Origin: a virus
DNA length: 64,000 nt
IMG/VR virus record: IMGVR_UViG_3300031951_021456
Span: 62,001 to 126,000 of that record
Strand: one strand, 5' to 3'
Both the position numbers and the translations under genes were made by a program. Every line of letters starts with the position of its first letter. Position 1 is the first letter of the stretch. The notes under the pieces are model-generated. The model saw only the letters and a program-made list of their open reading frames with translations, was not told the origin of the DNA and did not search any database. Positions 11,376 through 40,251 of this stretch are shown here, in pieces.

Positions 11376-11399
11376 GAAAAAGAAACTTGGAGATTCCCC

Positions 11400-11745: not shown

Positions 11746-11746
11746 A

Positions 11747-12619: not shown

Positions 12620-12737
12620 AAGCACCCAAAGAGTACAAACAATGGATCAATAGACTGAGAGCTTTATATTCCTCTTAGATAATCCACATATGGAAAGGAA
12701 ATTAAACAACAATAAAAAGCATAGAAAAATAAAAATT

Positions 12738-12797
12738 GAGACAATTTAACAACTGTCCACCAAATCTCAAAATTCACAAAAAATCCCTTAGTATTAA
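12738..12797 (+). promoter_or_regulatory. Dyad-type promoter
   Basis: GAGACA-atttaacaac-TGTCC at 12738-12758 followed by TAGTAT/TATTAA at 12789-12797, 27 bp before the RNA ligase ATG. Confidence 0.5.
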
Positions 12798-12820
12798 CCT
12801 ACAATCAACCAAAATCAACC

Positions 12821-13357: not shown

Positions 13358-13366
13358 AACAAATCA

Positions 13367-14131
13367 ATGAAATCTGAACTATTTCAATTTGCTGAAGTTG
13401 GTGGAGCTGTTCGGGATTCTTTTCTCGGAGTTCCTTCAAAAGATATAGACTTTGTTGCAATCCCAAATAATACAAATGATTGGAATTATGCAGATGAGGC
13501 TTTTACTAATTTAGTACAGGAATTATTTCATCTAGGATTCAAAGGATTTGATAGTAATAGTGGGAACTTCATTCTAAAGCCTGAATTTTTCACTGCTAGA
13601 GTGCAAGTCCCTAAAGAGAACCCTCTTCATCAACGTACAGTTGTGGCAGATTTTGTTCTATCACGTAAAGATGGACCAAGTTCTGATGGACGTAGACCCG
13701 ATTATGTTCTACCTGGAACTTTGCTTGATGATCTTAAGCGTAGAGATTTTACCATTAATGCAATGGCAGTCTTAGACGGCGAATTGGTAGATTATTTCGG
13801 CGGTCAAAAAGATCTAGAGGATCGCTTAATTCGCTTTGTTGGAGATCCACACGAAAGAATTGCAGAAGATGGTTTAAGAGTTATGAGAGCTTTAAGATTT
13901 GTAATCACTAAAGATTTTATGCTCCATCCAGAGACCTATGATGCTATTAATTGCAGTTTAGGTGCACAGATGTTGACAAAAGTTTCTATTGAACGTATTA
14001 GAGAAGAGCTGGAGAAAATGTTCACCTCAAATACATTGAAAACGATTTCTATTCTCAGTGGCCTTAAAGCTGATCTTCAAGAAGCAATTTTTAGAGATGG
14101 TTTGCGTCTGATGCCGTCTTTGAAGCATTAG
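13367..14131 (+). CDS. CCA-adding / poly(A) polymerase-type nucleotidyltransferase
   Basis: Class II tRNA nucleotidyltransferase fold: GGAVRDSFLGV (12-22), the metal-binding DID pair (26-28), RRDFTINAMAV, and the RNA-binding helix block RIAEDGLRVMRALRF. These enzymes add or repair the 3' CCA of tRNA. At 254 aa it is shorter than cellular enzymes (~400), lacking most of the C-terminal body. It lies 9 bases behind the RNA ligase, suggesting joint work on damaged tRNA. Confidence 0.9.
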   Translation: MKSELFQFAEVGGAVRDSFLGVPSKDIDFVAIPNNTNDWNYADEAFTNLVQELFHLGFKGFDSNSGNFILKPEFFTARVQVPKENPLHQRTVVADFVLSRKDGPSSDGRRPDYVLPGTLLDDLKRRDFTINAMAVLDGELVDYFGGQKDLEDRLIRFVGDPHERIAEDGLRVMRALRFVITKDFMLHPETYDAINCSLGAQMLTKVSIERIREELEKMFTSNTLKTISILSGLKADLQEAIFRDGLRLMPSLKH

Positions 14132-14450: not shown

Positions 14451-15263
14451 ATGTCTCTCGTAAAAGTTGGTCTAGGTCTTGGTGCTGGCGTCCTGGTTCT
14501 TGCACTTATTTCCGGGCAATGGACAACAATCAATACAGGTGAAAACGGACTTTACACTGGATTTGATGGCCAGGTAAAGAATGAAGTTCTCACCCCCGGT
14601 ATTAAATATGATGGTTTTGGTTCAATTAAAGTCTTCAATACTCGTAAGATTACGGTGACGGCAAATGACCTTCGCCCCAAGACTAAAGATAACACCATCA
14701 TGAAGGAGATGGATGTGACCGTAACCTACAGTATCAATCCCACCTCTCTCTATGATTTCTATACTGGTTATGATATGACCAATCACTCTATCAGCGAAAA
14801 TGGACAAATTCAACTCATGTCCAGTTACATTGCTCGTCTGATTACTTCTGCTGTCAATCAATCTGTGGACGAATTCCCCGCTTTGGTTGTAAACAGCAGC
14901 CTTGGACAGGTTCAAGATACGATTAAGATTAATCTAAGCGAATCTCTAAAGAAAAATGGTCTTGAGGGAAAGATTACCATTGATTCAATCATTGTTGGTA
15001 AAGCTGATCTTCCTGATACTCTTGTTGAATCTGTGAACCGTGTGGTTGCGGCCCAATCTGCAAATAAAGAGCAACAAGTGAAGACTGAAACTGCCCAATT
15101 GAAAGCTGAAGAGAACAAGGCTCTTGCATCTACTGTGACGGCACAATCTCTTGAGTATCAACGTCTTGAAGTTCTTCGTGAAGCGATGAGGAATGGTAGC
15201 ATTCAAAAAATTCTGATTAATGGTGCCAATGTTCTTTCACTTTCTGATAATGTTTTTAAGTGA
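14451..15263 (+). CDS. SPFH / band-7 (prohibitin-like) membrane protein
   Basis: N-terminal membrane anchor (residues 5-22) followed by an SPFH domain (GLYTGFDGQVKNEVLTPGIK and the long VTVTYSINPTSLYDFY region) and a C-terminal Gln/Glu/Ala-rich coiled coil (about 205-245). Such proteins form membrane-associated rings. Similar genes occur in large cyanophages. Codon use looks somewhat more GC-rich than its neighbours, consistent with high expression. An intrinsic terminator follows at 15299. The role in infection is unknown. Confidence 0.85.
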   Translation: MSLVKVGLGLGAGVLVLALISGQWTTINTGENGLYTGFDGQVKNEVLTPGIKYDGFGSIKVFNTRKITVTANDLRPKTKDNTIMKEMDVTVTYSINPTSLYDFYTGYDMTNHSISENGQIQLMSSYIARLITSAVNQSVDEFPALVVNSSLGQVQDTIKINLSESLKKNGLEGKITIDSIIVGKADLPDTLVESVNRVVAAQSANKEQQVKTETAQLKAEENKALASTVTAQSLEYQRLEVLREAMRNGSIQKILINGANVLSLSDNVFK

Positions 15264-19886: not shown

Positions 19887-20084
19887 ATGTTTGTTCAAAT
19901 TTCTCCTGAAAAAAACATTGAAGTCTATTATATGAACAAGGAGAAGTGTGATAGCTATAATGATTTTCATGGGTATAATGAAAATGACAGTAATTATATC
20001 AGAGAAGGATATTATTATGAGAATATGATTGGAAATTTTAAAAGTCAGAAAGAAGCAATTGAACATGCCAAAGCTAAACTATGA
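19887..20084 (+). CDS. Small acidic Tyr/Asn-rich protein (65 aa)
   Basis: The stop overlaps the next family gene (ATGA), arguing for real translation. C-terminal helix QKEAIEHAKAKL resembles the 'EDAI..A' ends of small genes at 55-59 kb. Confidence 0.6.
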   Translation: MFVQISPEKNIEVYYMNKEKCDSYNDFHGYNENDSNYIREGYYYENMIGNFKSQKEAIEHAKAKL

Positions 20085-20437
20085 AAATCTCTACAACACA
20101 TAAAAGATTTGCAGATCGGTTAAGAGGCCAACCTGCCCTAAAATATCCTGAATATTTCTTAGGACCTAATTGGAAGGATGTATTGAATTTCTGGATTTAT
20201 TTGGATACTTTGAGTGATGATGATATTAGGTTAATTGATATGAGATATTTTGCTTTATGGGATTTAAATACCTTAAGGAATCTTGCTTGGAAAGCTGCTA
20301 AGGATACTATAGGTGTGTATTATGCAGAAGCATCTATTCTCACTCCTACATATGCTGGGACTTATGTAACCAGTGAACTTATTGGTTCTCATAAGCTTAA
20401 GTCTCTTAAGTTTCTCCCTTTGTTTTTAAACCTATGA
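20081..20437 (+). CDS. LGPNWK family member 3 (118 aa)
   Basis: Begins MKISTTHKRFADRLRGQPAL, nearly identical to member 1 (9430), then LGPNWKDVLNFWIYLDTLSD and an end ELIGSHKLKSLKFLPLFLNL. Tandem with the next copy through an ATGA overlap. Confidence 0.8.
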   Translation: MKISTTHKRFADRLRGQPALKYPEYFLGPNWKDVLNFWIYLDTLSDDDIRLIDMRYFALWDLNTLRNLAWKAAKDTIGVYYAEASILTPTYAGTYVTSELIGSHKLKSLKFLPLFLNL

Positions 20438-20805
20438 AAATCTCTACAACACATAAAAAATTTGCAGATCGGTTATGGGACCAACCTGTTTTAGAATACC
20501 CTGAACGATTTCTAGGACCTAATTGGAAGAATGTATTGAACTTCTGGATTTATTTGGATACTTTGAGTGCTGAGGATACTGATATAATTCATATGCGCTA
20601 TTTGGTTTTAGGTGAAGATGCTATAGTTTATGCTGAAAACCATGATTGGAAAGCTGCTAGGGATACTATAGGTTTTACATATGCAGATGCAACTTGTCAT
20701 ATAACTTTTACATTTCCAAGCATTTATACAACTCTTGAACTCATTGGTTCTCATAATCTTGAGTATTTGACTTTTCTTCCATTGTTTTTAAAACATAAAA
20801 TTTAA
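20434..20805 (+). CDS. LGPNWK family member 4 (123 aa)
   Basis: First 50 residues are nearly the same as member 3, then the middle diverges (EDTDIIHMRYLVLGEDAIVY) before the common LELIGSHNLEYLTFLPLFLK end. Tandem duplication with a hypervariable core. Confidence 0.8.
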   Translation: MKISTTHKKFADRLWDQPVLEYPERFLGPNWKNVLNFWIYLDTLSAEDTDIIHMRYLVLGEDAIVYAENHDWKAARDTIGFTYADATCHITFTFPSIYTTLELIGSHNLEYLTFLPLFLKHKI

Positions 20806-21024: not shown

Positions 21025-22263
21025 ATGGAACTCCGACTGCAACAAAAAAAGGCCATTGAAGTTCTTTCTCAGGCAAATAGAGGAATTATTGCAATGGCTC
21101 CAGGCTCAGGGAAAACTCTCATTCAAATTCATGATTCAAAAAGAATTTTTGAACAATCTGAAGAACCACAGACTGTTGTAGTTGTAGCGCCAAGAATACT
21201 TCTTGCTTCGCAGTTATCTTTTGATTATGGAAAGCACATTAATTGTGCTAAGTATCTCCATGTTCACTCAAAAATTGGAAAGGTAAATCATTATCATACA
21301 ACAGATAAAGAAAATATCAGACAATGGTGTGAAATTCATAAGGAGCACCATAAACTAATTTTTACCACCTATCATTCACTCAAAAAGATTTATAAATCAG
21401 GGATTACGGTAAATACATATATGTTTGATGAATCACATAATTCAACATCTGCTGGGTTTCATGAATATGTGAAAAAGGTAAGTGATAATAATCAAAGATG
21501 CTTCCATTTTAGTGGTACACCTAGATTTAGCAGGGCACCTAAAAATCCGAAAAAGACAAAAAAACCTGGAATGAATGATCCAGTTTATGGTGAAATTATA
21601 GTAAAAGCCACAGCAGCAGAAATGATTAAGCATGGTTATATCTTAAAGCCAAGGGTCATTTCTCATTATCTTGAATGGGTTGAAGAGAGAACTGCACAAC
21701 ATGATGCAACAGATATCTTAAATATCATTAAGACATACAATCTTTCTAAACTTCTTATAAACGTAAGAAAAACATCAAATATGATGGAAATGCTTTCAGA
21801 GACAAATTTTCAAGAGTCTTTGAGAGAACTTGGCTATGATTTATTACATATTACTTCAAATTATGGTCCAGTGTATAATGGTAAAAAAATTAAAAGGGAC
21901 AGATTTTTCCAACTCTTAGATAAGCTTGGTGAATCTATGGATAAAAAATATGTCATTTTAAATTATTCAATTTTAGGTGAAGGAATAAACATTAAATCAT
22001 TAGATGCTGTACTCTTACTAAGGCAACTAAATCTAATAAAACTTATTCAAACTATAGGGCGAGCAATCAGACTCTCTTCTGAGGATCAAAGGGCTATTGA
22101 TAATGGAAGCTTAAAGGCATGTGATTATATGAATTATCTTAAACCTGAAGGTTTAGTAATTATACCTGTTTATGATAAAAGACTTTTAGAGCAATCTAAA
22201 AGTATTACAACCACTGTTGAAGATGTCTATGAAAAGGGAGAACTCCCAATTATGCAAGTTTAA
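21025..22263 (+). CDS. SF2 DNA/RNA helicase (DEAD/H-type)
   Basis: A 412-aa ATP-dependent helicase or translocase. Walker A is APGSGKT (25-31), motif II DESH (135-138), motif III FSGTP, motif V ILGEGINIKSLDAV, and motif VI QTIGRAIRL. The two RecA-like domains are complete and there are no additional nuclease domains. Its overall layout is that of phage restart/recombination helicases such as the UvsW type, though it is shorter than T4 UvsW. It is followed by a LGPNWK family gene after 4 bases. Confidence 0.9.
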   Translation: MELRLQQKKAIEVLSQANRGIIAMAPGSGKTLIQIHDSKRIFEQSEEPQTVVVVAPRILLASQLSFDYGKHINCAKYLHVHSKIGKVNHYHTTDKENIRQWCEIHKEHHKLIFTTYHSLKKIYKSGITVNTYMFDESHNSTSAGFHEYVKKVSDNNQRCFHFSGTPRFSRAPKNPKKTKKPGMNDPVYGEIIVKATAAEMIKHGYILKPRVISHYLEWVEERTAQHDATDILNIIKTYNLSKLLINVRKTSNMMEMLSETNFQESLRELGYDLLHITSNYGPVYNGKKIKRDRFFQLLDKLGESMDKKYVILNYSILGEGINIKSLDAVLLLRQLNLIKLIQTIGRAIRLSSEDQRAIDNGSLKACDYMNYLKPEGLVIIPVYDKRLLEQSKSITTTVEDVYEKGELPIMQV

Positions 22264-22267
22264 ACTC

Positions 22268-22627
22268 ATGAAAATCTCTTCAACACATCAACAATTTGCA
22301 AATGATTTAAAAGACCAAACTGCTCTAGAATACCCTGAACGTTTTCTAGGACCCAATTGGAAGAATGTCCTGAACTTCTGGATTTACTTGGATACTTTGA
22401 ATGATGAAGAGAGTGAGTTAATTAATAAGCGTTATTGGGCTTCAGAAGATTTAATGAATTTAACAAATCTTTCTTTTAAAACTGCTGAAGCTATTATAGG
22501 GCATGAAAATGCATCTGTAGCTTGGAGTGTCACTCCTTCATTTTCATCTGCTTGTGCAACCTGTGAACTCATTGGCTCACATAATCTAGAGTCTTTTAAG
22601 TTTCTTCCATTGTTTCTAAATATGTGA
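22268..22627 (+). CDS. LGPNWK family member 5 (119 aa)
   Basis: Start at ATG 22268, just after the helicase stop; the longer in-frame extension upstream lies inside the helicase gene. Carries QTALEYPERFLGPNWKNVLN and CELIGSHNLESFKFLPLFLN with a variable core. Confidence 0.8.
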   Translation: MKISSTHQQFANDLKDQTALEYPERFLGPNWKNVLNFWIYLDTLNDEESELINKRYWASEDLMNLTNLSFKTAEAIIGHENASVAWSVTPSFSSACATCELIGSHNLESFKFLPLFLNM

Positions 22628-26085: not shown

Positions 26086-27630
26086 ATGTCACTTAAAATT
26101 TCCGAAAAAGCTAATCTTAATTATCTTGCAAAAGTTGTAAAACTAACAAATCTTAGAAAGCATCCAAATGCAGATAAATTACAGATAACCACTATTGATG
26201 GAAATAATATCATTACTGGCTTAGATGCTAAGGATGGTGATCTTTATGTGTATTTTTCTCTTGAAAGTTCAATCAATTTGAATTATATTTCATTTTCAAA
26301 TGGATTTAGGGAAAGCTCTTTAAATACTAATAAAGAAGTTGTTGGATTTTTTGAACCAAGAGGTAGAGTGCGGGCGATCTCTCTTCGGGGTGAAAAATCA
26401 TGTGGATATATTTGTCCAGTAAAAAATATCAATGAATGGCTTAATACCTTTACGTCTTTCAATATTACTGAAGAACATCAAGATGTAGAATTTGATATGA
26501 TTTGTGATACGGTAATGTGCGAAAAATATATAAATCGTGAAGCACTTCTTAAAATCTTAAAGGCCAATAAAACTCCAAAGGGTATTAAAAAATTAGCAAA
26601 AGAAACAAAGCTAATTGAAGGTCAATTCGCATTTCATGTTGATACTGCACATCTTCAAAAATATATCTATAAAATCAATCCGCATGATATCATTCATATT
26701 TCCAAAAAGCTTCATGGAACTTCTGCTATTGTTGGAAATATTTTGTGTAAGCGTAAATTATCGCTTAAAGATTCCATTGCAAGATTTTTTGGGGTAAATG
26801 TAAATGAAACAGAATATCAATTGATTTGGTCTTCTAGAACAGTTGTAAAGAATGGCAACTATTATTTGTCTTGGCAAGAAACCCTCTGGAAAAATTTTCT
26901 ATATTATCTCAGCAGTTACAAAAAACCATTTGAATCTTGGGTATCCTTGATTTTAGCTGAAGGTGACCAGAAAAGAGAAGAATTTTTTGGTGATTTGCAA
27001 TATCATAGATCAACTCCTTTGCAACTCTATAAAGATTTGCAAGAGTGGAGTAAAATTATCAAAAATCCACAAACATCTAATCATTATTATTCATATGATA
27101 TTTGGAGGGATGTTGCTATCCAGCTTGAAGATTTTCTTTATAAAGGAATGACATTTTATTGTGAAGTTGTTGGTTATACAAAGGAAGGAGCATATCTTCA
27201 AAAGGGTTATGACTATGGTTGCGATCTAGGAAACTTTGCAATTTACATCTATCGCATCACATATACAAATCCTTCAGGGAAGATATTTGAATTTTCAACT
27301 CAGCAAGTGAAGGCATATTGCAATAAACTTGGCCTAAACATGGTCCCAGAACTTTATTATGGGAGAGCAAAAGACCTATTTGACATTCCTGTAGATGATA
27401 ATTGGCATGATAATTTTATTGAATTAGTTAGCCAGAATTATCTTGAAAAGGATTGTGACATGTGTGTAAATAAAGTTCCAGATGAAGGTATTGTACTCCG
27501 TAAGGAAGATATTGACATTGAACCATACAAATATATAAGTTTTGCATTTAAACTGCGAGAAACAAAAAATGCAGATAATGGCGAAATTGATCTAGAAACA
27601 ATTGAATCTGAACAGTTAGGTGATGCATAA
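26086..27630 (+). CDS. RNA ligase, two-domain (Rnl5/DraRnl-like)
   Basis: A 514-aa protein. Residues ~12-110 form an OB-like module (LAKVVKLTNLRKHPNADKLQ) seen at the front of one RNA ligase class. The ligase core begins at ISKKLHGTSAIVG, where the Lys of KLHGT is the likely nucleotide acceptor. It continues with WSSRTVVKNG, FYCEVVGYT (motif IIIa), DEGIVLRKE (IV) and FAFKLRE (V). It would seal nicked or cleaved RNA. It is the second RNA ligase of the window and has its own terminator upstream. Confidence 0.85.
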   Translation: MSLKISEKANLNYLAKVVKLTNLRKHPNADKLQITTIDGNNIITGLDAKDGDLYVYFSLESSINLNYISFSNGFRESSLNTNKEVVGFFEPRGRVRAISLRGEKSCGYICPVKNINEWLNTFTSFNITEEHQDVEFDMICDTVMCEKYINREALLKILKANKTPKGIKKLAKETKLIEGQFAFHVDTAHLQKYIYKINPHDIIHISKKLHGTSAIVGNILCKRKLSLKDSIARFFGVNVNETEYQLIWSSRTVVKNGNYYLSWQETLWKNFLYYLSSYKKPFESWVSLILAEGDQKREEFFGDLQYHRSTPLQLYKDLQEWSKIIKNPQTSNHYYSYDIWRDVAIQLEDFLYKGMTFYCEVVGYTKEGAYLQKGYDYGCDLGNFAIYIYRITYTNPSGKIFEFSTQQVKAYCNKLGLNMVPELYYGRAKDLFDIPVDDNWHDNFIELVSQNYLEKDCDMCVNKVPDEGIVLRKEDIDIEPYKYISFAFKLRETKNADNGEIDLETIESEQLGDA

Positions 27631-27673
27631 TAATTATCCTTTACTTTAACATTATTGTATTGTTTCTAAACCA

Positions 27674-28042
27674 GTGAAAATCTCCACCACCCATCAAAAA
27701 TTTGCAGATCAGTTAGGCGACCAAACTGCTCTAGAATACCCTGAACGTTTTCTAGGACCTAATTGGAAGGATGTTTTGAACTTCTGGATTTATTTGGACA
27801 CTTTAAGCGCCGAAAAGCGTAAGATAGTTAGTAAGCGCTATAGTGCTTTAGCTGATACTTCAGTAATAAGTTTAACTCATGGTTCTCACTGGGTTCTTAC
27901 ATGGAATGCTGCTCAAGATATTATAGGTAATGAATGTGTATGGTCAGCTTTCCGGGTGATTGGGAGCAGTGTGAACATTGAACTCATCGCTTCACATAAA
28001 CTTGAGTCTCTTAAGTTTCTTCCCCTGTTTTTGAATTTATGA
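27674..28042 (+). CDS. LGPNWK family member 7 (122 aa), GTG start
   Basis: GTG start in the context tttctaaaccaGTG, the same bases that end member 1 and begin member 2. So the upstream 20 bases look like a relic of a lost neighbour. Standard N- and C-terminal blocks; the core contains an insertion (LTHGSHWVLT). Confidence 0.8.
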   Translation: MKISTTHQKFADQLGDQTALEYPERFLGPNWKDVLNFWIYLDTLSAEKRKIVSKRYSALADTSVISLTHGSHWVLTWNAAQDIIGNECVWSAFRVIGSSVNIELIASHKLESLKFLPLFLNL

Positions 28043-28392
28043 AAATCTCTAGAACACATAAAAGATTTGCCGATCATTTAGATGACCAAACTGCTTTAGA
28101 ATACCCTGAACGATTTCTAGGACCCAATTGGAAAGATGTACTGAACTTTTGGATTTATTACGATACTTTGAGTGATGATGTTCTTAGGTTAATTATTAGG
28201 CGCCATCAGGCTATAGAGGATTTAAATTATGTAAAGAATCTTTCTTGGAATGCTGCTGAAAATACTATAGGTGAGTATTATACGCGGGTAGCTTATGATG
28301 TTACACATTCTCTTAGTTATTTAACCTGCGAACTCATTGGTTCACATAAGCTTGAGACTCTCAATTTTCTTCCTTTGTTTTTGAATTTATGA
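28039..28392 (+). CDS. LGPNWK family member 8 (117 aa)
   Basis: ATGA overlap with member 7 and with the kinase gene that follows. FADHLDDQTALEYPERFLGP start and CELIGSHKLETLNFLPLFLN end; variable core. Confidence 0.8.
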   Translation: MKISRTHKRFADHLDDQTALEYPERFLGPNWKDVLNFWIYYDTLSDDVLRLIIRRHQAIEDLNYVKNLSWNAAENTIGEYYTRVAYDVTHSLSYLTCELIGSHKLETLNFLPLFLNL

Positions 28393-28847
28393 AACATCTT
28401 CCATCTCTGCTTATTTTATGTGGACTTCCTGGTTCAGGTAAGAGCACTTATTGTAAACAATATTCAAATTCAAATTTTGTAAGACTTTCATCAGATGATT
28501 ATATTGAAAAAGTGGCAAGAGACCAAGGAAAAACATACAATGAAGTTTTTTCATATGCAATTAGAGATGCTGATAGATATTTTAAACAAAAATTAGACTA
28601 TTATGCAGACACTGAATATAACATAATTATTGATAGAACAAATCTTACTGTAAAAACTAGAAGAAAGATTATCAACAAATTTAAAAATCATCAAAAGATG
28701 ATTGTATTTTTTAATGTGCCATTAAATACCATAAAAGAAAGAAACATCAGGCCTGGAAAAATATTTTCTGAAGAAATGTTAGATGATATGTATAGTAGAT
28801 TGGAAATACCAACAGAACTTGAAGCTCAAGTTGTGACAGTTAGCTAA
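28389..28847 (+). CDS. Polynucleotide kinase-like P-loop kinase
   Basis: P-loop GLPGSGKST (12-20), a strand-end VRLSSDDYIE, the IIIDRTNLTVKTRRKI block typical of T4 Pnk-like 5'-kinases, and a lid with ERNIRPG. At 152 aa it has only the kinase domain, with no C-terminal phosphatase. A separate metallophosphoesterase gene follows. It likely re-phosphorylates 5' RNA or DNA ends for the RNA ligases nearby. Confidence 0.85.
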   Translation: MKHLPSLLILCGLPGSGKSTYCKQYSNSNFVRLSSDDYIEKVARDQGKTYNEVFSYAIRDADRYFKQKLDYYADTEYNIIIDRTNLTVKTRRKIINKFKNHQKMIVFFNVPLNTIKERNIRPGKIFSEEMLDDMYSRLEIPTELEAQVVTVS

Positions 28848-28890
28848 CTGTCCAAAGGTGACAGACTACAAAGGTACTCAATGTTATGAT
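28833..28890 (+). promoter_or_regulatory. Dyad-type promoter with perfect palindrome
   Basis: GACAGTTAGCTAACTGTC (28835-28852) is a perfect 18-bp palindrome; TATGAT at 28885-28890. The best-formed example of this promoter class. Confidence 0.75.
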
Positions 28891-28913
28891 ATGTATTATT
28901 GATTCGGAAACTA

Positions 28914-29603
28914 ATGAATTGCGTTCTTGTTGGGGACATTCATTCTCAATTTTCAAAACTTCAAAATGCTCTTAATTACATTGAAAATACTATTGAGGAT
29001 TATTATATCATATTTTTAGGAGATGCATTTGATTCAAGATGTGAAGAATCAAATTCTGTTGGAGTCTACAAAACAATTAAAAATTTACAAGATAAAAACA
29101 AAGCAACTCTCATTCATTCAAATCATCAATGGAAACTTCAACGATATCTTTATGGAAATCCTGTAAGAATTGATCAATCTCTACAGAGAACTCTTGATGA
29201 TTTTCAGAGTTCAGATGTTACATCTATTGAACTTTTAACTTGGCTTGAGTCTTTACCATTTGCTTGTGCATTTAAAGATATTAATGAACAAGAATATCGC
29301 TGCGCCCATGCATATCATAGTTCTAAGCTTCTTATTCCTAGAACTTATGATGGCATACATTGTACTTATAAAGTAAGTGCAAAAATGCGAGATAAATTGA
29401 TTTATGGTGCATTATATGAGGGAACCCGGCTGTCATGGTGGGAACATGAATCAACAAATGAATGGATTCGGGTTTCTGGACATTATCATACTGTTGAAAT
29501 CTCATATACAAAAAAAGCATTGGTATTGGATTCATGTTGCGGGGATGAAAATGGTCTTCTCTCTGTTTTTAATGTAAACACATGGGAGATTTTTCAATTT
29601 TGA
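28914..29603 (+). CDS. Calcineurin-like metallophosphoesterase
   Basis: Metal-binding motifs in order: GDIHSQ near the start, GDAFDSR, SNHQWK (replacing GNHE), and SGHYHT near the C-terminus. 230 aa, start at ATG 28914. It could remove end phosphates or act as a nucleotide phosphatase. Its location next to the kinase, and the RNA ligases, makes RNA-end processing attractive. Overlaps the next gene. Confidence 0.85.
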   Translation: MNCVLVGDIHSQFSKLQNALNYIENTIEDYYIIFLGDAFDSRCEESNSVGVYKTIKNLQDKNKATLIHSNHQWKLQRYLYGNPVRIDQSLQRTLDDFQSSDVTSIELLTWLESLPFACAFKDINEQEYRCAHAYHSSKLLIPRTYDGIHCTYKVSAKMRDKLIYGALYEGTRLSWWEHESTNEWIRVSGHYHTVEISYTKKALVLDSCCGDENGLLSVFNVNTWEIFQF

Positions 29604-30124
29604 ATATTAAGGATCATCTTATTGAAAGACATGTTGATCTAAATCTGCATAAGCCACTTCTAGATGATGAAAACATCTCTGCCATATTTTTATGCTATAA
29701 TTTATCTGGACAATTATGTGGCTATCAGAGATATAGGCCATTAGGAGATAAAAAGATTTTTAATAATCCATATCATGGTCGGTATTACACATATAGAAAG
29801 CAACAAACTGTTACAGTTTGGGGAGCAGAATCTTATTTCATTTCAAATGGCCCAATCTTTATAACTGAGGGAATTTTTGATGCAGCAAGAATTACAGAAA
29901 GAAATTGTAGTGCCTTTGCTATGTTATGTAATAGTCCACCAAAAGACTATAAAAATTGGCTCCAAATGTTAGCTAGACCAACTATTGCAATTTGCGATAA
30001 TGATCAGGCTGGCATTGAGCTTTCCAAGTTTACTGATTTTTATGAGATTGCTCCAGATGGTGATTTAGGTTCTTCTCCAAATGACTACGTTTCTTATCTT
30101 TTAACTAAATATGCCAGTCTTTGA
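29582..30124 (+). CDS. TOPRIM-domain protein (DNA primase-like)
   Basis: TOPRIM core: IFITEGIFDAARIT holds the conserved Glu, and AICDNDQAGIEL holds the DxD pair. Preceded by a small N-terminal segment with an aromatic YYTYRKQQT strand. At 180 aa it lacks a zinc-finger and helicase, unlike full primases. May prime DNA or process nucleic acids. Confidence 0.75.
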   Translation: MGDFSILNIKDHLIERHVDLNLHKPLLDDENISAIFLCYNLSGQLCGYQRYRPLGDKKIFNNPYHGRYYTYRKQQTVTVWGAESYFISNGPIFITEGIFDAARITERNCSAFAMLCNSPPKDYKNWLQMLARPTIAICDNDQAGIELSKFTDFYEIAPDGDLGSSPNDYVSYLLTKYASL

Positions 30125-30218: not shown

Positions 30219-30280
30219 AACCAACTGTCCACTCTCTCACCCAAACTCACAGATCTCTGTTATCTTATAGGGGTGAGAGA
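30219..30280 (+). promoter_or_regulatory. Promoter/operator of the ubiquitin-like operon
   Basis: Right half-site AACTGTCCAC (30223-30232) is followed by a 10-bp inverted repeat, TCTCTCACCC (30233-30242) with GGGTGAGAGA (30271-30280), that encloses a TATCTTATAG -10 region (30261-30270). No good -35. Confidence 0.55.
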
Positions 30281-30324
30281 CAAAAACTCTCCACAAACCC
30301 TCAACTCTACAAAATAACTGCATT

Positions 30325-30594
30325 ATGTCTTCTTTCTCTAACGCTCTTCAGCAACAAGATCCTTCTGCTGTTGTGTATCTGGATGTGAACGGTAACGTGA
30401 TCGCTCTGATGCCCAACGAATACGAGGGGAAAACCCTGACCCAACTTTTCACCGACTTTGGTTCCCGACTCGGCACTAACGTTTCCCGCGTTACAAGCTT
30501 CACTATCAATGGTCAACAAGTGGGCGCCACCGCCGTTGTCCGCCCAGGCGAAACCGTTCGCGGCAACGTTCAAACTGACAGCAAGCAAGCCTGA
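30325..30594 (+). CDS. Ubiquitin-like (beta-grasp) protein
   Basis: 89 aa. Strand-turn-strand start (AVVYLDVNGNVIALMPNEYE), helix (LTQLFTDFGSRLG), then strands SFTINGQQVGATAVVRPGET: a beta-grasp layout like ThiS/PRTRC-C/BilA-type Ubls. The call rests mainly on the genes that follow (JAMM, E1). It ends VQTDSKQA, so there is no C-terminal di-glycine; maturation or a non-GG attachment would be needed. Codons are much more GC-rich than the neighbours. A hairpin follows within 25 bases, possibly letting this gene be made in excess over the enzymes. Confidence 0.65.
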   Translation: MSSFSNALQQQDPSAVVYLDVNGNVIALMPNEYEGKTLTQLFTDFGSRLGTNVSRVTSFTINGQQVGATAVVRPGETVRGNVQTDSKQA

Positions 30595-30618
30595 TCATCC
30601 TTCAGATTAATTGACCAT

Positions 30619-30660
30619 GAGTCTACCTAGTTTCTGGGTAGACTCTATTTCTTTATCTTT
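30619..30660 (+). terminator. Hairpin/attenuator between Ubl and JAMM genes
   Basis: GAGTCTACC/GGTAGACTC 9-bp stem (30619-30627, 30637-30645) followed by TATTTCTTTATCTTTTATT. It overlaps possible upstream starts of the next gene, which supports the start at 30665. Confidence 0.65.
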
Positions 30661-30664
30661 TATT

Positions 30665-31774
30665 ATGACATCTTCTAGATTCCTAAATCTTTATGCTAAT
30701 TATCATGGTGATCAAACCGTTCTTGAGAATCCTGAGCAAGTTCTAGGACCAAATTGTAAAAGTATTTTAGACTTTTGGGAGAGCCTAGATGAAAGTGTTC
30801 TTAGAACTGAATTTGATGGTTCATTTGAGATCTATTCCTGTCCATGGGGGAAATATCTTAGGCCTTGCCGGGATCCTCTAGCTAATTCAGTAATAACAAA
30901 AGAAAATTATGATAAGTTTGAAGTCGCAGAAAATGTCAATAAAATTCCATCAGATATTTGGACTGCATGGATTCTTCTCTGTTTTCATTTTGTGGATAAA
31001 GTTCCAACAAAAATGGAAGTTCTTGTTCGTTTCTTGAGAAATGAAGAAAATCCATCTCAATTTATGGCAGTCGTCCCTAAACAATCTGTTACAGGGGTAT
31101 CAGTAAAAGTTGGAAACTTTAATGATTGCTGTAACCTCTTAACTGGAGAAAAATACACATCATATCCACCAGAAGGTTGGATTCCATGTGGTTCTAGTCA
31201 TAGCCATAATACATTGTTTTCTGGCTGGAGTGATGAAGATAATAAATATGAAATTCCAGATCCAGGGATTCATATTACGGTTGGGGAAATCAACTCAACA
31301 AAACGAACATATCAAATTGCCGCTTCAGTGACAGGAAATTTGAAAAGATTCAAGATTAATTATACTCATCTCATTGATACAACATTTGATGAAGACTCTA
31401 AATTTCATAAAAATGTATTAGAATATGTTGAAATTAGTACAACAAAATATCAATCATGGCCTACGAATGTTAATTATAAACCCCTGCAGCGAAAACTTCC
31501 TCCAGCCAAAACAACTTTCAGCAATATTGAAGAATATCGTGAGTTTATGTATGGGGAATTCACTGATTTTGATGCCTATAAAAAAATTAGTAGAGATCCA
31601 TTTCATTATAGCGATTCGTTTAGATATGTAACTAATACATTAGAGGTTCATCAAATAGCTGATAGCATTGAAGATTTTATCAAAGAGAATCGCAATGATG
31701 CTGATCAACTAGAAGAGTTGCAAAATACTCTGTCTTCATGTCTTATTGATCTTCAACTTGAACTAAACTCATGA
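30665..31774 (+). CDS. JAMM/JAB isopeptidase fused to LGPNWK-type domain (member 9)
   Basis: 369 aa from ATG 30665. Residues ~3-45 (YANYHGDQTVLENPEQVLGP then NCKSILDFWESLDE) are clearly a LGPNWK family domain. Residues ~115-235 are a JAB domain: candidate Glu118 (KMEVLVRF), and a complete JAMM motif HSHNTLFSGWSDED giving H179, H181, S189 and D192, followed by GIHITVGEIN strands. The layout of this domain resembles PRTRC protein A / Prok-JAB. The likely job is removing or trimming the ubiquitin-like protein. C-terminal ~80 residues are helical. Overlaps the next gene (ATGA). Confidence 0.85.
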   Translation: MTSSRFLNLYANYHGDQTVLENPEQVLGPNCKSILDFWESLDESVLRTEFDGSFEIYSCPWGKYLRPCRDPLANSVITKENYDKFEVAENVNKIPSDIWTAWILLCFHFVDKVPTKMEVLVRFLRNEENPSQFMAVVPKQSVTGVSVKVGNFNDCCNLLTGEKYTSYPPEGWIPCGSSHSHNTLFSGWSDEDNKYEIPDPGIHITVGEINSTKRTYQIAASVTGNLKRFKINYTHLIDTTFDEDSKFHKNVLEYVEISTTKYQSWPTNVNYKPLQRKLPPAKTTFSNIEEYREFMYGEFTDFDAYKKISRDPFHYSDSFRYVTNTLEVHQIADSIEDFIKENRNDADQLEELQNTLSSCLIDLQLELNS

Positions 31775-32592
31775 CATCCATTCTTTTTCCCGAAACGCTT
31801 CCTTCTGGGCTTGTTAATCTATTTCCACCAAAAATCAGTGCAATTTCATATAATTATTCTGGAGATGGATTGCTTTTAAGGGCTCATATGAAAGATAAAT
31901 TTAGACGTTTGCAACAAGATGGTGAATATGCTGCAAACTTTCTTATGTGTCCCATGATTTTTCAGCAAACTTTGGAAATTAATAACCCTGAAACTAGATT
32001 TCAAGTAAGAGAAACTCCCAGCCATTATCCAGAAACCAGAGTATATTTACAGGGAACAAAAATAGTAGATAATAATATTTTTACAACAGTAAAGGATAAT
32101 ATGTCAAATGTATGTGATAGCACTTTTTTAGTTTGCTGGGGTGGAAATTTTAATGTAAAGAGTATAAAAACAATGAAAGGATTTATTGATCTTTTCTTTA
32201 ATAGTTATTTTAATGGTGATTATACTTCACCAAAGGCATTAAGGACATCTGAAGAAAATTGTATTGAGATTAGAGGTGAAATTGCAGAAGATTCTTTTGA
32301 GGCCACTAATTATAAGCTCATTTCAAAGGATGCAAATGCAATCTATACTATTCATAGGCATGATAATCCTTCCATTTTCTTTTGGCTTAAATCTGCCGGA
32401 TTTAATCCAATTGTAGAAAATTCTGACATTATGTTAGTTCCACTTAAGAGTGTTATCCTAACGGATAATGGAATTGATTATCCTGGATTTGTAACACCTA
32501 TTGATCTTTGCCGTAAGAAATGGTTCATTCTCCCTGATGGGAAATTTGTTGGGCAGATGTCCAGTTCACAGACTGTCCGTAACCCCACGTAA
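31771..32592 (+). CDS. Candidate E2-like / PRTRC-B-like component (273 aa)
   Basis: Sits between the JAMM and E1 genes, where an E2-like partner is expected in such operons. Visible pieces: a central CDSTFLVCWGGNFNVKS strand, KGFIDLFFNSYFNGDY helix, and a C-terminal FFWLKSAGFNPIV...LPDGKFVG region. I cannot see a decisive E2 catalytic Cys; Cys117 and Cys124 of the CDSTFLVC stretch are candidates only. The assignment rests on position. Confidence 0.45.
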   Translation: MTSILFPETLPSGLVNLFPPKISAISYNYSGDGLLLRAHMKDKFRRLQQDGEYAANFLMCPMIFQQTLEINNPETRFQVRETPSHYPETRVYLQGTKIVDNNIFTTVKDNMSNVCDSTFLVCWGGNFNVKSIKTMKGFIDLFFNSYFNGDYTSPKALRTSEENCIEIRGEIAEDSFEATNYKLISKDANAIYTIHRHDNPSIFFWLKSAGFNPIVENSDIMLVPLKSVILTDNGIDYPGFVTPIDLCRKKWFILPDGKFVGQMSSSQTVRNPT

Positions 32593-32639
32593 AATCCCTA
32601 AAACCTCCTAGATTAAAAAAGCCTACAACACACTCAAAA

Positions 32640-33353
32640 ATGTTTGATAAAGTTTATCTGCTCGGAATTGGCGGGGGTGGAAGTCACCTTGCTCCAGTTC
32701 TCGTCCAAACTCTCCGCTCACACCCAAAAACTTCATATAGTACAATCACCTTTATTGATGGTGATAAATTTGAGAAAAAAAACCAGAGCCGACAGCTTAT
32801 GGAGCCTAGCGATGTTGGCCTTAACAAGGCTACTTCAGTTGCTAGAATCTGTGAAGATCGTGGATTTTCTGATGTATATTCAATTGAAGATTATGCAAAC
32901 TTTGAGAATCTAGTTCCACTTCTTGAAGATGCTCAGTCTCCACTTGTGATTGCATGTGTAGATAACAATGCAACCAGGGCAGCTATCATTGATGCGATCC
33001 AAAAAGTTTGCATTGATGATAACAAGAAGAACTTCTTCTTTATCACACCTGGTAATAGTGATGCGACCGAAGACCCTAAGGGTCAAGTTTGTTGGTGGGG
33101 GGCAATCAACGGGAAAACTTATGGTCAAAACCCCAAAGAATATGATCTAGACATTCAAAATCCTGATGATTTTATTCCAAGGATTGGTGGATGTATGGAT
33201 ATGAGCGAATCTCATCCACAAGTTCTTTCAGCAAATCATCTTGCGGTGTCTCTCACCCTTTCTCTCGTTCAAACACTGTTGGATGAGAAATTGGATCATC
33301 GTAAGTCTCAAATTCGCTTCAACTGCTACAATCTTACCACTGCCATTTCCTGA
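32640..33353 (+). CDS. E1/ThiF/MoeB-like adenylating enzyme
   Basis: 237 aa. Nucleotide-binding loop GIGGGGSHL (9-17); FIDGDKFEKKNQSRQ gives the acidic pair (D40, D42), Asn48 and Arg51; LNKATSVARI gives Lys63; and IACVDNNATR gives Asp108: a full E1 adenylation set. Cys185 (GGCMDM) is a possible thioester Cys. The C-terminal ~50 residues (HLAVSLTLSLVQTLLDEKL... RFNCYNLTT) parallel PRTRC-type ThiF proteins. It would activate the Ubl as an acyl-adenylate. Confidence 0.85.
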   Translation: MFDKVYLLGIGGGGSHLAPVLVQTLRSHPKTSYSTITFIDGDKFEKKNQSRQLMEPSDVGLNKATSVARICEDRGFSDVYSIEDYANFENLVPLLEDAQSPLVIACVDNNATRAAIIDAIQKVCIDDNKKNFFFITPGNSDATEDPKGQVCWWGAINGKTYGQNPKEYDLDIQNPDDFIPRIGGCMDMSESHPQVLSANHLAVSLTLSLVQTLLDEKLDHRKSQIRFNCYNLTTAIS

Positions 33354-33358
33354 AAATC

Positions 33359-33829
33359 ATGTCTGACAATCCTCAAAACGTTAAAGTCAATGCAAGAGTT
33401 CTTAAATTTGATCAACTTCTTCAAGGCATTGAAGAATACGCAAGTTCAATCCGTACTCGTACAGATTCTGCTCTGAGCGAGGATAACATCTGCTCCCGTA
33501 TTGAAGAGATCTTTGGGGAAGAAGAATCTTTCAATAGGCTAGTTGCAGCTATTGTTACTCGTATTGGCATTAATAGCATCGTTAATGGTGTTGTTCGCCA
33601 AACGCAAGGAGACATTAACGAGAAGATTGATGCTACCATTAGCTCAAAACTCTCAGAAGAACCCCTACTTTCCACTGTAAATAGGCTCATTCAAATGCAC
33701 GCCAATGGTCAGGAAATTTCAATTCCTGATATCAATCAAAATCGCAAAATTGAAGACATTCCATTGGATAGTCCAGAAAATATTGCAGAGGTCTGTAGGC
33801 TTCTAGCTGGGGCTGACGCAATTCTCTGA
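33359..33829 (+). CDS. Helical operon partner (156 aa)
   Basis: Last gene of the ubiquitin-like operon, 5 bases after the E1 stop. Mostly helical, with acidic Glu-rich stretches (RIEEIFGEEESFNRLVAAIV). It ends near a strong terminator. It could be a substrate, adaptor or scaffold. No recognised family. Confidence 0.7.
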   Translation: MSDNPQNVKVNARVLKFDQLLQGIEEYASSIRTRTDSALSEDNICSRIEEIFGEEESFNRLVAAIVTRIGINSIVNGVVRQTQGDINEKIDATISSKLSEEPLLSTVNRLIQMHANGQEISIPDINQNRKIEDIPLDSPENIAEVCRLLAGADAIL

Positions 33830-33839
33830 TTCATTTTGA

Positions 33840-33865
33840 GGGGAGAATTAATCTCCCCCTTTTTG
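33840..33865 (+). terminator. Intrinsic terminator of the ubiquitin-like operon
   Basis: GGGGAGA/TCTCCCC stem, 5-nt loop, then CTTTTT. Confidence 0.8.
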
Positions 33866-33874
33866 TTTAAAACC

Positions 33875-34255
33875 ATGAAAATCTCCATTTCACATCAACA
33901 TTTTGCAAATTGGTTAAAGGCTCAAGATGCTCTAACTAATCCAGAAAAATATCTTGGCCCCAAATGGAAAGATGTCCTGAACTTTTGGATTTATTTGGAT
34001 TCAGAAGAGTCTGAGTGGGATGAGCGGCGTTGCACCGCTACTCTGCGTGCCGCTTATAATATTATAGGCTCTGAGTGGGATGAGCGGCGTTGCATCGCTA
34101 CTCTGCGTGCCGCTTATAATATTATAGGCTCTGAGTATGGATATGCAGCTTTTAATGCTCATGTTGGTTATGCTGAAGGGCATGCAACCTGTGAACTTAT
34201 CGCTTCACATAAACTTGAGTCTCTCAGTTTTCTTCCCCTGTTCTTGACCCCATGA
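33875..34255 (+). CDS. LGPNWK family member 10 with internal duplication (126 aa)
   Basis: Start ATG 33875; ends CELIASHKLESLSFLPLFLT. A 60-bp tandem duplication in the core repeats SEWDERRCTATLRAAYNIIG with a single substitution (Thr to Ile). It directly follows the terminator of the ubiquitin-like operon. Confidence 0.8.
   Translation: MKISISHQHFANWLKAQDALTNPEKYLGPKWKDVLNFWIYLDSEESEWDERRCTATLRAAYNIIGSEWDERRCIATLRAAYNIIGSEYGYAAFNAHVGYAEGHATCELIASHKLESLSFLPLFLTP
34009..34128 (+). repeat. 60-bp in-gene tandem duplication
   Basis: Copies 34009-34068 and 34069-34128 differ by one base (C/T), so the duplication is recent. Confidence 0.9.
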
Positions 34256-35354: not shown

Positions 35355-35508
35355 TTCCCGCTATAGCATTCATGCAAATGGGTGTATAGTAAATGTAGGA
35401 GACTTAAATTCAGCCTACATGATTGCATACAGAATGGCCAGCTCTTTTGGCCATTCTTTCATTTATGACAATCTTTTCAATAAAACAATTGATGAGTATT
35501 TTGAATGA
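35308..35508 (+). CDS. Small unknown protein (66 aa)
   Basis: Start uncertain; ATG 35308 lies within the previous gene. YMIAYRMASSFGHSFIYDNL is the best-formed segment. Its stop overlaps the next ATG, consistent with coupling. Confidence 0.4.
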   Translation: MIVISLSGRFLLSKSNSRYSIHANGCIVNVGDLNSAYMIAYRMASSFGHSFIYDNLFNKTIDEYFE

Positions 35509-35909
35509 TCTATTCTAAAAGACATTTAGCATTTTCTGAGTTATTTCCATCAGCATTAACACAACCAGAAGAATTTATAGGTCGTAACTGGAAAAATGTT
35601 TTAAATATTTGGATTTTCCTGGATACTATAGATTGTGCTCAATTACATAGAATATATTCAATCTGCTTTCATCCATGTTATGATTATAAATATAGATCAC
35701 TATTGTCTCAATATTCTTTTGAAGAATGCGAATATAGCAGTGATATTTATAATTTAACTCCTAGTGGATTTGATTATCTTGTATTAGAGCTAATATTAGA
35801 ACAAACATTGATGGAAAATCAAATACCCTTGAGGTATCTTCCAAATCTATGCGATTTTATGCCACTTTTTAAATCGTCCATGGATGGCTCAAATAGCTTT
35901 CAGCCATAG
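35505..35909 (+). CDS. LGPNWK family member 11, divergent (134 aa)
   Basis: FIGRNWKNVLNIWIFLDTID replaces the usual block; the rest is divergent and ends LPNLCDFMPLF. Function unknown. Confidence 0.7.
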   Translation: MIYSKRHLAFSELFPSALTQPEEFIGRNWKNVLNIWIFLDTIDCAQLHRIYSICFHPCYDYKYRSLLSQYSFEECEYSSDIYNLTPSGFDYLVLELILEQTLMENQIPLRYLPNLCDFMPLFKSSMDGSNSFQP

Positions 35910-37389: not shown

Positions 37390-37439
37390 GAACTCCTTAT
37401 CATTCAAAGCTTGACAAACCATAATCTTACCACTATCAT
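37386..37439 (+). promoter_or_regulatory. Sigma70-type promoter with ATAAG-N5-CTTAT dyad
   Basis: Dyad 37386-37400, TTGACA 37411-37416, 17-bp spacer, TATCAT 37434-37439; sets the next start at 37465. Confidence 0.8.
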
Positions 37440-37464
37440 TAAAAGATCTTCAACACTTGAACTG

Positions 37465-38040
37465 ATGAATCTCAATCAAGCTGCTCAAAACATGGTTTCT
37501 TTCTGGGAAGATCCAAGGAACATTCCATTCAAGGGCCAATTAATCTCTTTAGATGGCGATACACCATGCATGTGTGCACAAGGCCAAACCCTCTTTAAAG
37601 AGGGCGATTATTCGGTTAATCAGCTAGAGATGATGCCTCAAGAAGTAGCAGATAAAGAAACTGCACGAATCTTAGGAATCTCAGTTTCTCATTCTAGGCT
37701 CTTGCGTAGAATTAATGATTCTTGTCCAGATGCTCCACAAGATGTTCTAACTAATCCAGAAAAATATCTAGGGCATAATTATGAAGCTGTACTGAAATTT
37801 TGGTATCTTTTGGATACTTTGAGTCGTGAAGATTTTGATATAGTTGATAAGCGTTGTTATGATATAGTTTCTGCTTTCTCAGCAGCTTATGCTATTATAG
37901 GCTCTGAGTATGCAAATGCAGCTTTTGATGCTGCCATTGGTCTTGTTGCAGGTTATGCAACTCTTGAACTCATCGGCTCACATAAACTTCAAGAACATGT
38001 TTTTCTTCCTATGTTCTCTTTTACTCAACTTCAGCCATGA
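37465..38040 (+). CDS. CAQG-domain plus LGPNWK domain fusion (member 12)
   Basis: 191 aa. The N-terminal domain (MCAQGQTLFKEGDYSVNQLE, VADKETARILGISVSHSRLL) resembles a unit I associate with cyanobacterial and phage proteins; it leads directly into the family block DVLTNPEKYLGHNYEAVLKF and the ELIGSHKLQEHVFLPMFSF end. So two modules are fused. ATG 37465 follows a clear promoter; the TTG inside its -35 is rejected as start. Confidence 0.8.
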   Translation: MNLNQAAQNMVSFWEDPRNIPFKGQLISLDGDTPCMCAQGQTLFKEGDYSVNQLEMMPQEVADKETARILGISVSHSRLLRRINDSCPDAPQDVLTNPEKYLGHNYEAVLKFWYLLDTLSREDFDIVDKRCYDIVSAFSAAYAIIGSEYANAAFDAAIGLVAGYATLELIGSHKLQEHVFLPMFSFTQLQP

Positions 38041-38805: not shown

Positions 38806-39162
38806 ATGAAAATCTATCTTGACGATGATGCCAACTACAGAATCACTCCTGATGGTTGGCACAGAACATTTACAGCATCAGAAACCATAGAATTACTAAA
38901 AACCGAACAAGTAACACATCTAAGTCTAGATCATGATCTAGGACCACTTGAAGCTGGAACGGGTTATGATGTTGTGTGCTGGATTGAACAAATGGTTATT
39001 GAGAAACAATTTAATCCACCAATTATGACAATTCATTCAGCGAATCCGGTTGGAAGACAAAAAATGCAAGCAGCTATACAGATGATTTACCACCACTTCA
39101 AAGTAACTCAGCCAACATTGTGGGACGAGTTTATTTCAAACTTACAAACCTCAAATTCATGA
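38806..39162 (+). CDS. cREC-type receiver domain protein
   Basis: MKIYLDDDANYR and later LSLDHDLGPLEAGTGYDVVC give the acidic pocket (D6-D8, D42, D44), with a HSANPVGRQKMQAAI helix: the 'cyclic-phosphate processing receiver' pattern associated with RNA repair genes. ATG 38806 chosen. Fits with the RNA ligases and kinase in the window, though not adjacent to them. Overlaps the next gene's start. Confidence 0.75.
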   Translation: MKIYLDDDANYRITPDGWHRTFTASETIELLKTEQVTHLSLDHDLGPLEAGTGYDVVCWIEQMVIEKQFNPPIMTIHSANPVGRQKMQAAIQMIYHHFKVTQPTLWDEFISNLQTSNS

Positions 39163-39608
39163 CATACTCTAAGATACATCAAGCAGTTTCAAAAAAACTT
39201 AATACCCCTGAAGTTTTAATTGACCCAGAGAAATTTTTAGGAGAAAATTTCCAAATTGTCCTGGAATTTTGGAAATTTATTGATACACTGCTTCCTAAAG
39301 ATTTTGAGCGTATTTCATCTAGATATAATGAATTACATGAAAGGGAAGGTGATCTTGCAAGAAAGCTTGATTTCTGTTTAGAAGGTATCAACACACCAGT
39401 TAGAATAGCATGTTTTGATTCTGCCTATAATAACTACATGTACTCAACGTCTACATATAGAGCTGTTGCCTTTTCTATAGTTTATGCCACTCATGAATTA
39501 ATTAATTACTATAATAGCGATAATAGCGATAAACAATTGTACTTCCTGCCTTTGTTTGAAGAATTTTTGGTTGAGATTAATAAGAACTCCTTATCTAAAA
39601 CCCCTTGA
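39159..39608 (+). CDS. LGPNWK family member 13, divergent (149 aa)
   Basis: DPEKFLGENFQIVLEFWKFI block; the end (YNSDNSDKQLYFLPLFEEFL) lengthened. Overlaps the previous gene (ATGA). Its last residues run into the next promoter. Confidence 0.75.
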   Translation: MTYSKIHQAVSKKLNTPEVLIDPEKFLGENFQIVLEFWKFIDTLLPKDFERISSRYNELHEREGDLARKLDFCLEGINTPVRIACFDSAYNNYMYSTSTYRAVAFSIVYATHELINYYNSDNSDKQLYFLPLFEEFLVEINKNSLSKTP

Positions 39609-39633
39609 CAACTTAAGAGATTTCCATTATTCT
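39580..39633 (+). promoter_or_regulatory. Sigma70-type promoter with dyad
   Basis: ATAAG-N5-CTTAT 39580-39594; TTGACA 39605-39610; TATTCT 39628-39633. Confidence 0.75.
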
Positions 39634-39654
39634 TAAATCAATCGCCCAACACCA

Positions 39655-40251
39655 ATGAATCTCAATCAAGCGGCCCAAAACATGGTTTCCTTCTGGGAGG
39701 ATCCGAGAAACATTCCATTTAAGTGCAAATTAATATCTTTTACTGATAGTGGTAAACCTTGCATGTGTGCACAAGGACAAACACTCTTTAAAGAAGGTGG
39801 GTATTCTGTGGATCAGCTAAAGGAGATGCCTCAAGAAGTAGCAGATAAAGAAACTGCACGAATCTTAGGAATCTCAGTTTCTCATTCTTGGCTCTTGCGG
39901 CATATCAACGATTCTAGACTAGGTGCTCCGCAAGATGTTCTAACTAATCCAGAAAAATATCTTGGTCCCAATTGGGAAGCTGTACTGAAATTTTGGCATC
40001 TTTTGGATACTTTGAGTATGGACGAACTTAAGTGGGAAAAAGTTGGAATCCGCTTTTGTGCTTTAGATGAGTTTTATAGATGTTATTCTGAGAATGCAGT
40101 TTTAAAAGCTGCTGAAGATAATATAGAGATTTTCCATGCAAAAAACGTTTTCAATGATTGTTGTCGTGGTGTAGGTTTGGCAACCCTTGAAATCATTGGG
40201 TCTCATAAACTTCAAGAACATGTTTTTCTTCCTATGTTCTCCAACCTTTGA
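39655..40251 (+). CDS. CAQG-domain plus LGPNWK domain fusion (member 14)
   Basis: 198 aa, paralogue of the 37465 gene over the whole N-terminal domain (MNLNQAAQNMVSFWEDPRNI) and family block NPEKYLGPNWEAVLKFWHLL; the core differs. Both copies sit behind near-identical promoters. Confidence 0.8.
   Translation: MNLNQAAQNMVSFWEDPRNIPFKCKLISFTDSGKPCMCAQGQTLFKEGGYSVDQLKEMPQEVADKETARILGISVSHSWLLRHINDSRLGAPQDVLTNPEKYLGPNWEAVLKFWHLLDTLSMDELKWEKVGIRFCALDEFYRCYSENAVLKAAEDNIEIFHAKNVFNDCCRGVGLATLEIIGSHKLQEHVFLPMFSNL

Follow-up and report, generated by a model that had tools for sequence, protein, structure and literature searches.

To our knowledge, the conjugation of ubiquitin-like proteins (Ubls) in bacteria has so far been described chiefly in defence against phages and in a set of plasmid genes. 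Operons of type 6d, as defined by Iyer et al. in 2006, encode a Ubl, a JAB protease with an N-terminal extension, an E1-like protein, an E2-like protein with a Cys and a helical protein (PMC1779556). In our reading, the PRTRC sets of plasmids fit this type. The subject of the present analysis is a five-gene operon on the plus strand of a 64,000-nucleotide stretch of viral DNA, called the window here, which covers positions 62001-126000 of the 247,932-base (~248 kb) record IMGVR_UViG_3300031951_021456. The closely spaced genes, at window positions 30325-33829, encode a Ubl, a JAMM metalloprotease, an E2-like protein, an E1-like adenylating enzyme and a partner protein, and sit where a first-pass annotation of this DNA had placed them. 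The operon is probably a phage-borne cassette for Ubl conjugation and deconjugation, a divergent variant of the PRTRC/type 6d class that has been inherited within a clade of T4-like cyanophages.

Alignment-based scans of viral contigs recovered 13 further contigs on which homologous Ubl, JAMM, E2-like and E1 genes share this order, representing 9 distinct operons; scans of viral contigs with single window proteins (E1, Ubl or JAMM) gave no match. As these four genes recur in order on 13 contigs, and as the fifth protein matches a hidden Markov model (HMM) of the post-E1 genes from six relatives (E 3e-8, within this genome), the arrangement lies far beyond chance. More divergent JAMM and E1 pairs are present in loci L047-L052. 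The source virus is, judged by its terminase large subunit, a large T4-like cyanophage, as this protein is ~62% identical to those of T4-like Synechococcus phages; the phage origin proposed at first pass is thereby borne out. The same T4-like terminase is found on three contigs at 58-65% identity. The terminase gene lies beyond the window (genome 156873-159515; L011) and appears to be interrupted by an intein behind the Walker A region.

An AlphaFold2 model of the window Ubl (predicted local distance difference test score 81) has the secondary-structure order E-E-H-E-E-E, and Foldseek matched it to SUMO, ubiquitin and TGS domains with a probability of 1.00 (E 2e-3; template-modelling score 0.5-0.6), which supports the beta-grasp fold initially suggested for it. 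The protein is 30-47% identical to the Ubls of ten related phage operons and has no match in Pfam or NCBIfam. In the E1, which has no domain besides ThiF and no rhodanese domain, the nucleotide-site residues GxGGxG, D40-G-D42, R51-Q52, K63 and D108 are invariant in 19 phage sequences, and Cys185 is conserved in at least 90% of them; with the ThiF match given in Table 1, the E1 has the full adenylation set that had been read from it earlier. Its PRTRC_ThiF score is 47.6 bits against a curated cut-off of 144.75, the E1-E2 and BilD models of padloc match it weakly (the BilD match is partial, at 26.5 bits), and its sole match among solved structures is MccB (1e-3).

The open reading frame of the JAMM protein spans 30611-31774, and the residue numbering of the first-pass annotation fits an ATG at 30665. 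Counted from this start, E118, H179, H181, S189 and D192 are invariant across 15 relatives, so that the complete JAMM motif claimed for this gene (the last four residues) stands, with E118 in addition. Pfam Prok-JAB was matched by 14 of the 15 family members (best 2.8e-7), the window protein itself being below threshold, and a comparison of the JAMM protein with solved structures gave no match. The JAB-N domain of type 6d operons has a strictly conserved Arg and Trp. In the N-terminal region of the phage family R47 and W61 are invariant; W61 resembles the Trp of the plasmid RPW motif, and R47 is a candidate for the Arg. The first ~43 residues of the window protein are a fused piece from the N-terminus of one copy of a repeated 120-residue family of this phage (E 1.3e-12), replacing the usual start.

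The E2-like protein is, by profile comparison, homologous to the PRTRC_B/Prok-E2_D superfamily: hhalign related it to plasmid PRTRC_B proteins (E 6e-9) and to phage PRTRC_B-like proteins (E 7e-7), and two members of its family match Prok-E2_D (best 5e-6). Asn113, Cys122 (in a CWG motif), Asn148 and Asp150 are invariant in the alignment. In E2 enzymes the Asn of the HPN motif and the catalytic Cys have an eight-residue spacing; in the plasmid members and several phage members of this family the Asn and Cys are eight residues apart. Each of the ten relatives in the alignment has a Ubl tail with Lys-Gly, either at the stop codon or with one or two extra residues (...KG, ...KGF, ...KGVY, ...KGLG, ...KGRH). 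Plasmid Ubls of this class and other phage Ubls likewise finish in ...KG, and an Alicyclobacillus plasmid encodes a Ubl-JAMM fusion with KKG at the junction. The conservation of E1 Cys185, E2 Asn113 and Cys122, the JAMM site and the Lys-Gly tails argues for a real conjugation machinery.

The search for more distant relatives covered deposited phages, plasmids (searched with the E1) and cellular species genomes (searched with the JAMM alignment alone). A related E1 is present in only 6 of 50,697 deposited phage records, namely Bacillus phage KLEB27-3, Salmonella phage Arash, three Vibrio phages and one gut phage contig, and a JAMM gene adjoins it in each of those inspected (KLEB27-3, Arash, D69 and the gut contig). 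KLEB27-3, Arash and D69 additionally carry a PRTRC_B-like gene and Ubls ending in GTKG or AGVKG. Two of these phages encode poly-Ubl precursors, with four tandem repeats ending in AGVKG in KLEB27-3 (L002 676-1425) and three ending in GTKG in Vibrio phage D69 (L004 1397-2188). Related E1 genes occur in 102 of 72,556 plasmids, several annotated as PRTRC, and the JAMM alignment found no member of the cyanophage subfamily among the genomes of 84,980 species of bacteria and archaea. In these searches, the nearest cellular relatives are plasmid PRTRC/type 6d operons. The beta-clamp gene dnaN stands beside the Ubl operon in 3 of 12 inspected plasmids and in the phage contig MT835919 (L005 1679-2761; L056, L057, L059); it was not seen beside the operon in the cyanophage clade, and a link to replication is not used as an argument here.

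The architecture of the operon sets the Ubl gene apart from the others. The GC content at third codon positions is 0.54 in the window Ubl gene versus 0.21-0.33 in the remaining operon genes, and in seven of seven low-GC loci the Ubl gene (0.34-0.61) tops every other gene of the operon. A hairpin lies between the Ubl stop and the JAMM gene in 7/7 loci (z <= -2.4 in 6/7); those of the six relatives occupy the same place and are unrelated in sequence. As a codon-enriched gene is thus followed by a terminator-like hairpin, the Ubl is probably made in excess. A Ubl system needs its modifier in excess over the enzymes. Upstream of the Ubl gene, relatives have a leader element, GTCCAC..TAT..GGGTCGGTGAG, which is related to the upstream element of the window (Table 1) and moderately conserved, the window copy being weaker. 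The window element is a putative promoter; the conserved element is not a clear promoter genome-wide, and an Rfam search of the window gave no match. The operon had been described as bounded by a regulated promoter and a terminator: the terminator is present as a hairpin, but what is seen in place of the "regulated" promoter is an inverted repeat and the related leader element. The hairpin between the Ubl and JAMM genes, the fused start of the JAMM protein and the missing C-terminal Gly of the window Ubl had escaped the first-pass annotation.

Table 1. Features of the Ubl operon, in window coordinates (aa, amino acids)
Feature	Position	Strand	Basis or detail
Ubl upstream region: inverted repeat CTCTCACCC/GGGGTGAGAG flanking TATCTTAT element	30236..30324	+	alignment of upstream regions
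Ubl, 89 aa, beta-grasp	30325..30594	+	AlphaFold2 model, Foldseek, alignment to related phage Ubls
Terminator-like hairpin in Ubl-JAMM gap, 12-bp stem then T-rich tail	30619..30645	+	z -4.9
JAMM/JAB metalloprotease, 369 aa from ATG 30665	30665..31774	+	metal-site residues, Prok-JAB matches of family
E2-like protein, 273 aa	31771..32592	+	Prok-E2_D matches in relatives, hhalign, alignment
E1-like adenylating enzyme (ThiF), 237 aa	32640..33353	+	Pfam ThiF 1.4e-11, PRTRC_ThiF 1.3e-12
Partner protein, 156 aa, fifth operon gene	33359..33829	+	HMM match
Rho-independent terminator of operon	33840..33858	+	GGGGAGA-ATTAA-TCTCCCC then CTTTTTG

These features suggest how the cassette might work. The Ubl, encoded by a first, codon-enriched gene and followed by a partial terminator, would accumulate in excess, and where a tail of one or two residues extends past ...KG it would be trimmed by the JAMM protein; removing residues beyond the tail Gly is a classical task of JAMM proteases. 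Using ATP, the E1 would then adenylate the C-terminal Gly; the Ubl may be held on Cys185 of this enzyme, from which it could pass to Cys122 of the E2-like protein, where Asn113 is placed as in an HPN motif. Delivery of the Ubl to amines of target proteins would fall to the E2-like and fifth proteins, and the JAMM protein would later remove it. The cassette might serve to modify proteins of the host or of the phage, in take-over or in counter-defence, a use favoured by the position of the operon, which is away from the structural genes and immediately follows genes of the RNA-repair type. Such RNA-repair genes typically serve T4-like phages in counter-defence. Just upstream of the window operon are genes for a kinase (28389) and a metallophosphatase (28899), together with a primase-like gene (29582). 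Three relatives (L036, L041 and L046) likewise have kinase and/or phosphatase genes immediately before the operon, and L046 has a T4-type RNA ligase there too. In KLEB27-3, which is not closely related, genes for an RNA ligase, a polynucleotide kinase and a CCA enzyme lie no more than ~6 kb from the cassette.

Several observations weigh against this reading. The window Ubl ends in ...DSKQA, with the Lys kept and the Gly gone. As the Gly is kept in all ten aligned relatives, conjugation in the window phage is in doubt, and a search of the rest of the 248-kb genome for a second Ubl gene, by C-terminal motif and with the Ubls of other phages as phmmer queries, found none. Exactly at the end of the Ubl gene there is a short AGCA repeat, and slippage or an assembly error is therefore possible there; the window copy may be altered in mechanism, decaying or misassembled at its end. 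Foldseek found no UBC fold in the model of the E2-like protein and no usable match in PDB or BFVD, so that the E2 assignment first guessed for this gene is upheld by sequence profiles but not by fold. The region after the Cys reads FNNDL in the cyanophage clade and FNGDY in the window, versus FSHPNH or PNNHD in plasmids; the His conserved in type 6d E2s is thus absent from the clade. In each of the five gene trees the longest branch is that of the window, a pattern that may reflect relaxed constraint or no more than distance. In the literature searched, no report of a conjugate, a substrate or expression was found for this clade. Likewise, no paper joining PRTRC/6d systems with phages was found in the open literature, preprints and most subscription journals being outside the search. 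On the whole, the interpretation given at first pass is largely borne out at the level of the clade, but it is not secure for the window phage, whose Ubl has no C-terminal Gly.

The missing Gly permits other readings of the window copy. That the cassette is decaying in this phage, the Ubl Gly and the E2 Cys cluster lost and the proteins persisting without conjugation, is rather unlikely. It would fit the SKQA ending, the longest branches and the window E2-like protein, from which most of the Cys cluster carried by relatives (C-x2-C ... C ... C) is gone. However, all five frames are open although they are only ~40% identical to those of relatives, and the active residues of the JAMM, E1 and E2-like proteins are intact, which argues against long decay; the upstream element, the attenuator hairpin, the terminator and the codon enrichment of the Ubl are also kept. 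A different proposal holds that the cyanophage lineage runs a complete tagging cycle found in its present form only in phages and that the window phage has switched to a Gly-less Ubl, with new C-terminal chemistry in the E1 and E2 or a non-covalent Ubl. MccB, for example, activates a peptide end other than Gly; the proposal is nevertheless unlikely.

A conjugation cassette must also be weighed against quite different uses of the same proteins. The Ubl could be a sulfur carrier like ThiS, MoaD or Urm1, acting in tRNA thiolation or cofactor synthesis with no protein tagging. The E1 is of the ThiF type, two Ubl relatives match ThiS weakly (best 0.006) and several tRNA- or RNA-acting genes are nearby; however, the operon has an E2-like protein and a JAMM protease, neither a rhodanese domain nor a thiolase is present, and the Gly is gone in the window copy, all of which makes a sulfur carrier very improbable. 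Phage-borne defence against rival phages or plasmids, as in Bil or CBASS Ubl systems, is only slightly less doubtful: sets of Ubl, E1, E2 and JAMM are known as bacterial anti-phage systems (PMC11354881), and the weak padloc matches of the E1 point the same way, but neither a Bil-type architecture nor an effector gene was seen, and the operon is borne on T4-like phage genomes of the lytic type and not in a defence island. The Ubl might instead mark virions or act in their assembly, as lambda gpK cleaves the Ubl domain of the tail protein gpI (PMC12908700). The E1 and E2-like homologs of phage Arash are labelled "structural protein" (L003 1519-4539). A role in the virion is very unlikely, as the operon is ~30 kb away from the cluster of structural genes and the Ubl stands alone. 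The roles put forward at first pass, namely tagging of host or rival-phage proteins, opposition to a host Bil-like system and marking of virions, are hypothetical, and the position of the operon speaks against the last. Thus, a conjugation cassette of the PRTRC/type 6d class remains the probable reading for the clade, and the conserved phage set suggests that bacterial viruses, too, write and erase Ubl tags. Copies of the Ubl with an intact KG end are present in the cassettes of relatives (L037, L041, L033 and others), and these small intact cassettes offer a route to substrates of the PRTRC/6d class.

Other features of the locus lie around the operon. Window positions 10172-14131 and 26086-29603 encode a tyrosyl-tRNA synthetase, two RNA ligases, a CCA-adding enzyme, an AAA_33 kinase and a metallophosphatase, a set of RNA-handling genes near the Ubl operon. 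Immediately upstream of the operon, 29582-30121 encodes a 180-residue DNA primase-like piece corresponding to positions 148-304 of phrog_849. An SPFH/Band_7 protein at 14451-15263 is shared with L033 (11937-12749), where it is found just after the Ubl operon, and on a Bacillus velezensis plasmid (L062) the cassette has a gene of the prohibitin family nearby. The repeated ~120-residue family that contributes the start of the JAMM protein (MKIS..FLGPNWKDVLNFWIYLDTL...SHKLE..LPLF) has ~40 paralogs in the 248-kb phage, often in tandem; searches of 50,697 phage records and of related viral contigs gave no match to it. Copies in the window are at 9430-10163, 20081-20805, 22217-22627, 27674-28392, 33836-34255, 35505-35909, 37411-38040 and 39120-40251; the member at 33836-34255 has a 60-base direct repeat (34010-34129) duplicating 20 residues (SEWDERRC.ATLRAAYNIIG).

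In comparison with type 6d (PMC1779556), the cassette has a standalone Ubl, a JAB protein with a complete metal site, a ThiF-type E1 lacking a rhodanese domain, an E2-like protein with a Cys and a fifth gene, and the type 6d JAB, like the window JAMM, has an extra N-terminal region with a conserved Trp. It differs in being phage-borne, in a Ubl of another subfamily and in the absence of the terminal Gly from the window Ubl. The E2 of type 6d has an absolutely conserved His after the Cys, where the phage clade has Asn and the window Gly. As the clade lacks this His and a Prok_Ub-type Ubl, and the window lacks the terminal Gly, the clade was not filed as type 6d; it would work in the manner of that type and is taken as a phage-borne variant.

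The PRTRC cassettes of large plasmids (NCBIfam TIGR03735-TIGR03738 and relatives), named as relatives in the first-pass annotation, were the right direction: the E1 matches PRTRC_ThiF, the E2-like protein is homologous to PRTRC_B and the window JAMM to Prok-JAB/PRTRC_A. However, the window scores far under the curated cut-offs, with no match to A, B, C, E or F; the Ubl has an hhalign probability of 6% against PRTRC_C/Prok_Ub-type Ubls, and no ParB, PRTRC_E or PRTRC_F was recognised in the operon. The kinship with Bil suggested alongside PRTRC did not hold up. BilABCD resembles the cassette as one operon with a Ubl, an E2, a JAB and an E1, but BilA has two Ubl domains, BilD is a two-domain E1 with a Cys domain and BilB has a CEHH motif, none of which is seen here, where the Ubl is a single domain of 89 residues and the E1 has 237. 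The lambda gpI/gpK pair shares a phage Ubl and a JAB protein with the cassette; there, however, the Ubl is fused to a tail protein and no E1 or E2 is present, whereas the window Ubl is standalone in a nonstructural region. The phage cassettes of KLEB27-3, Arash, Vibrio D69, D148 and D181, and MT835919 likewise have adjacent Ubl, PRTRC_B-like, JAMM and E1 genes (JAMM and E1 were seen in MT835919), but are <30% identical and differ in gene order and partner genes.

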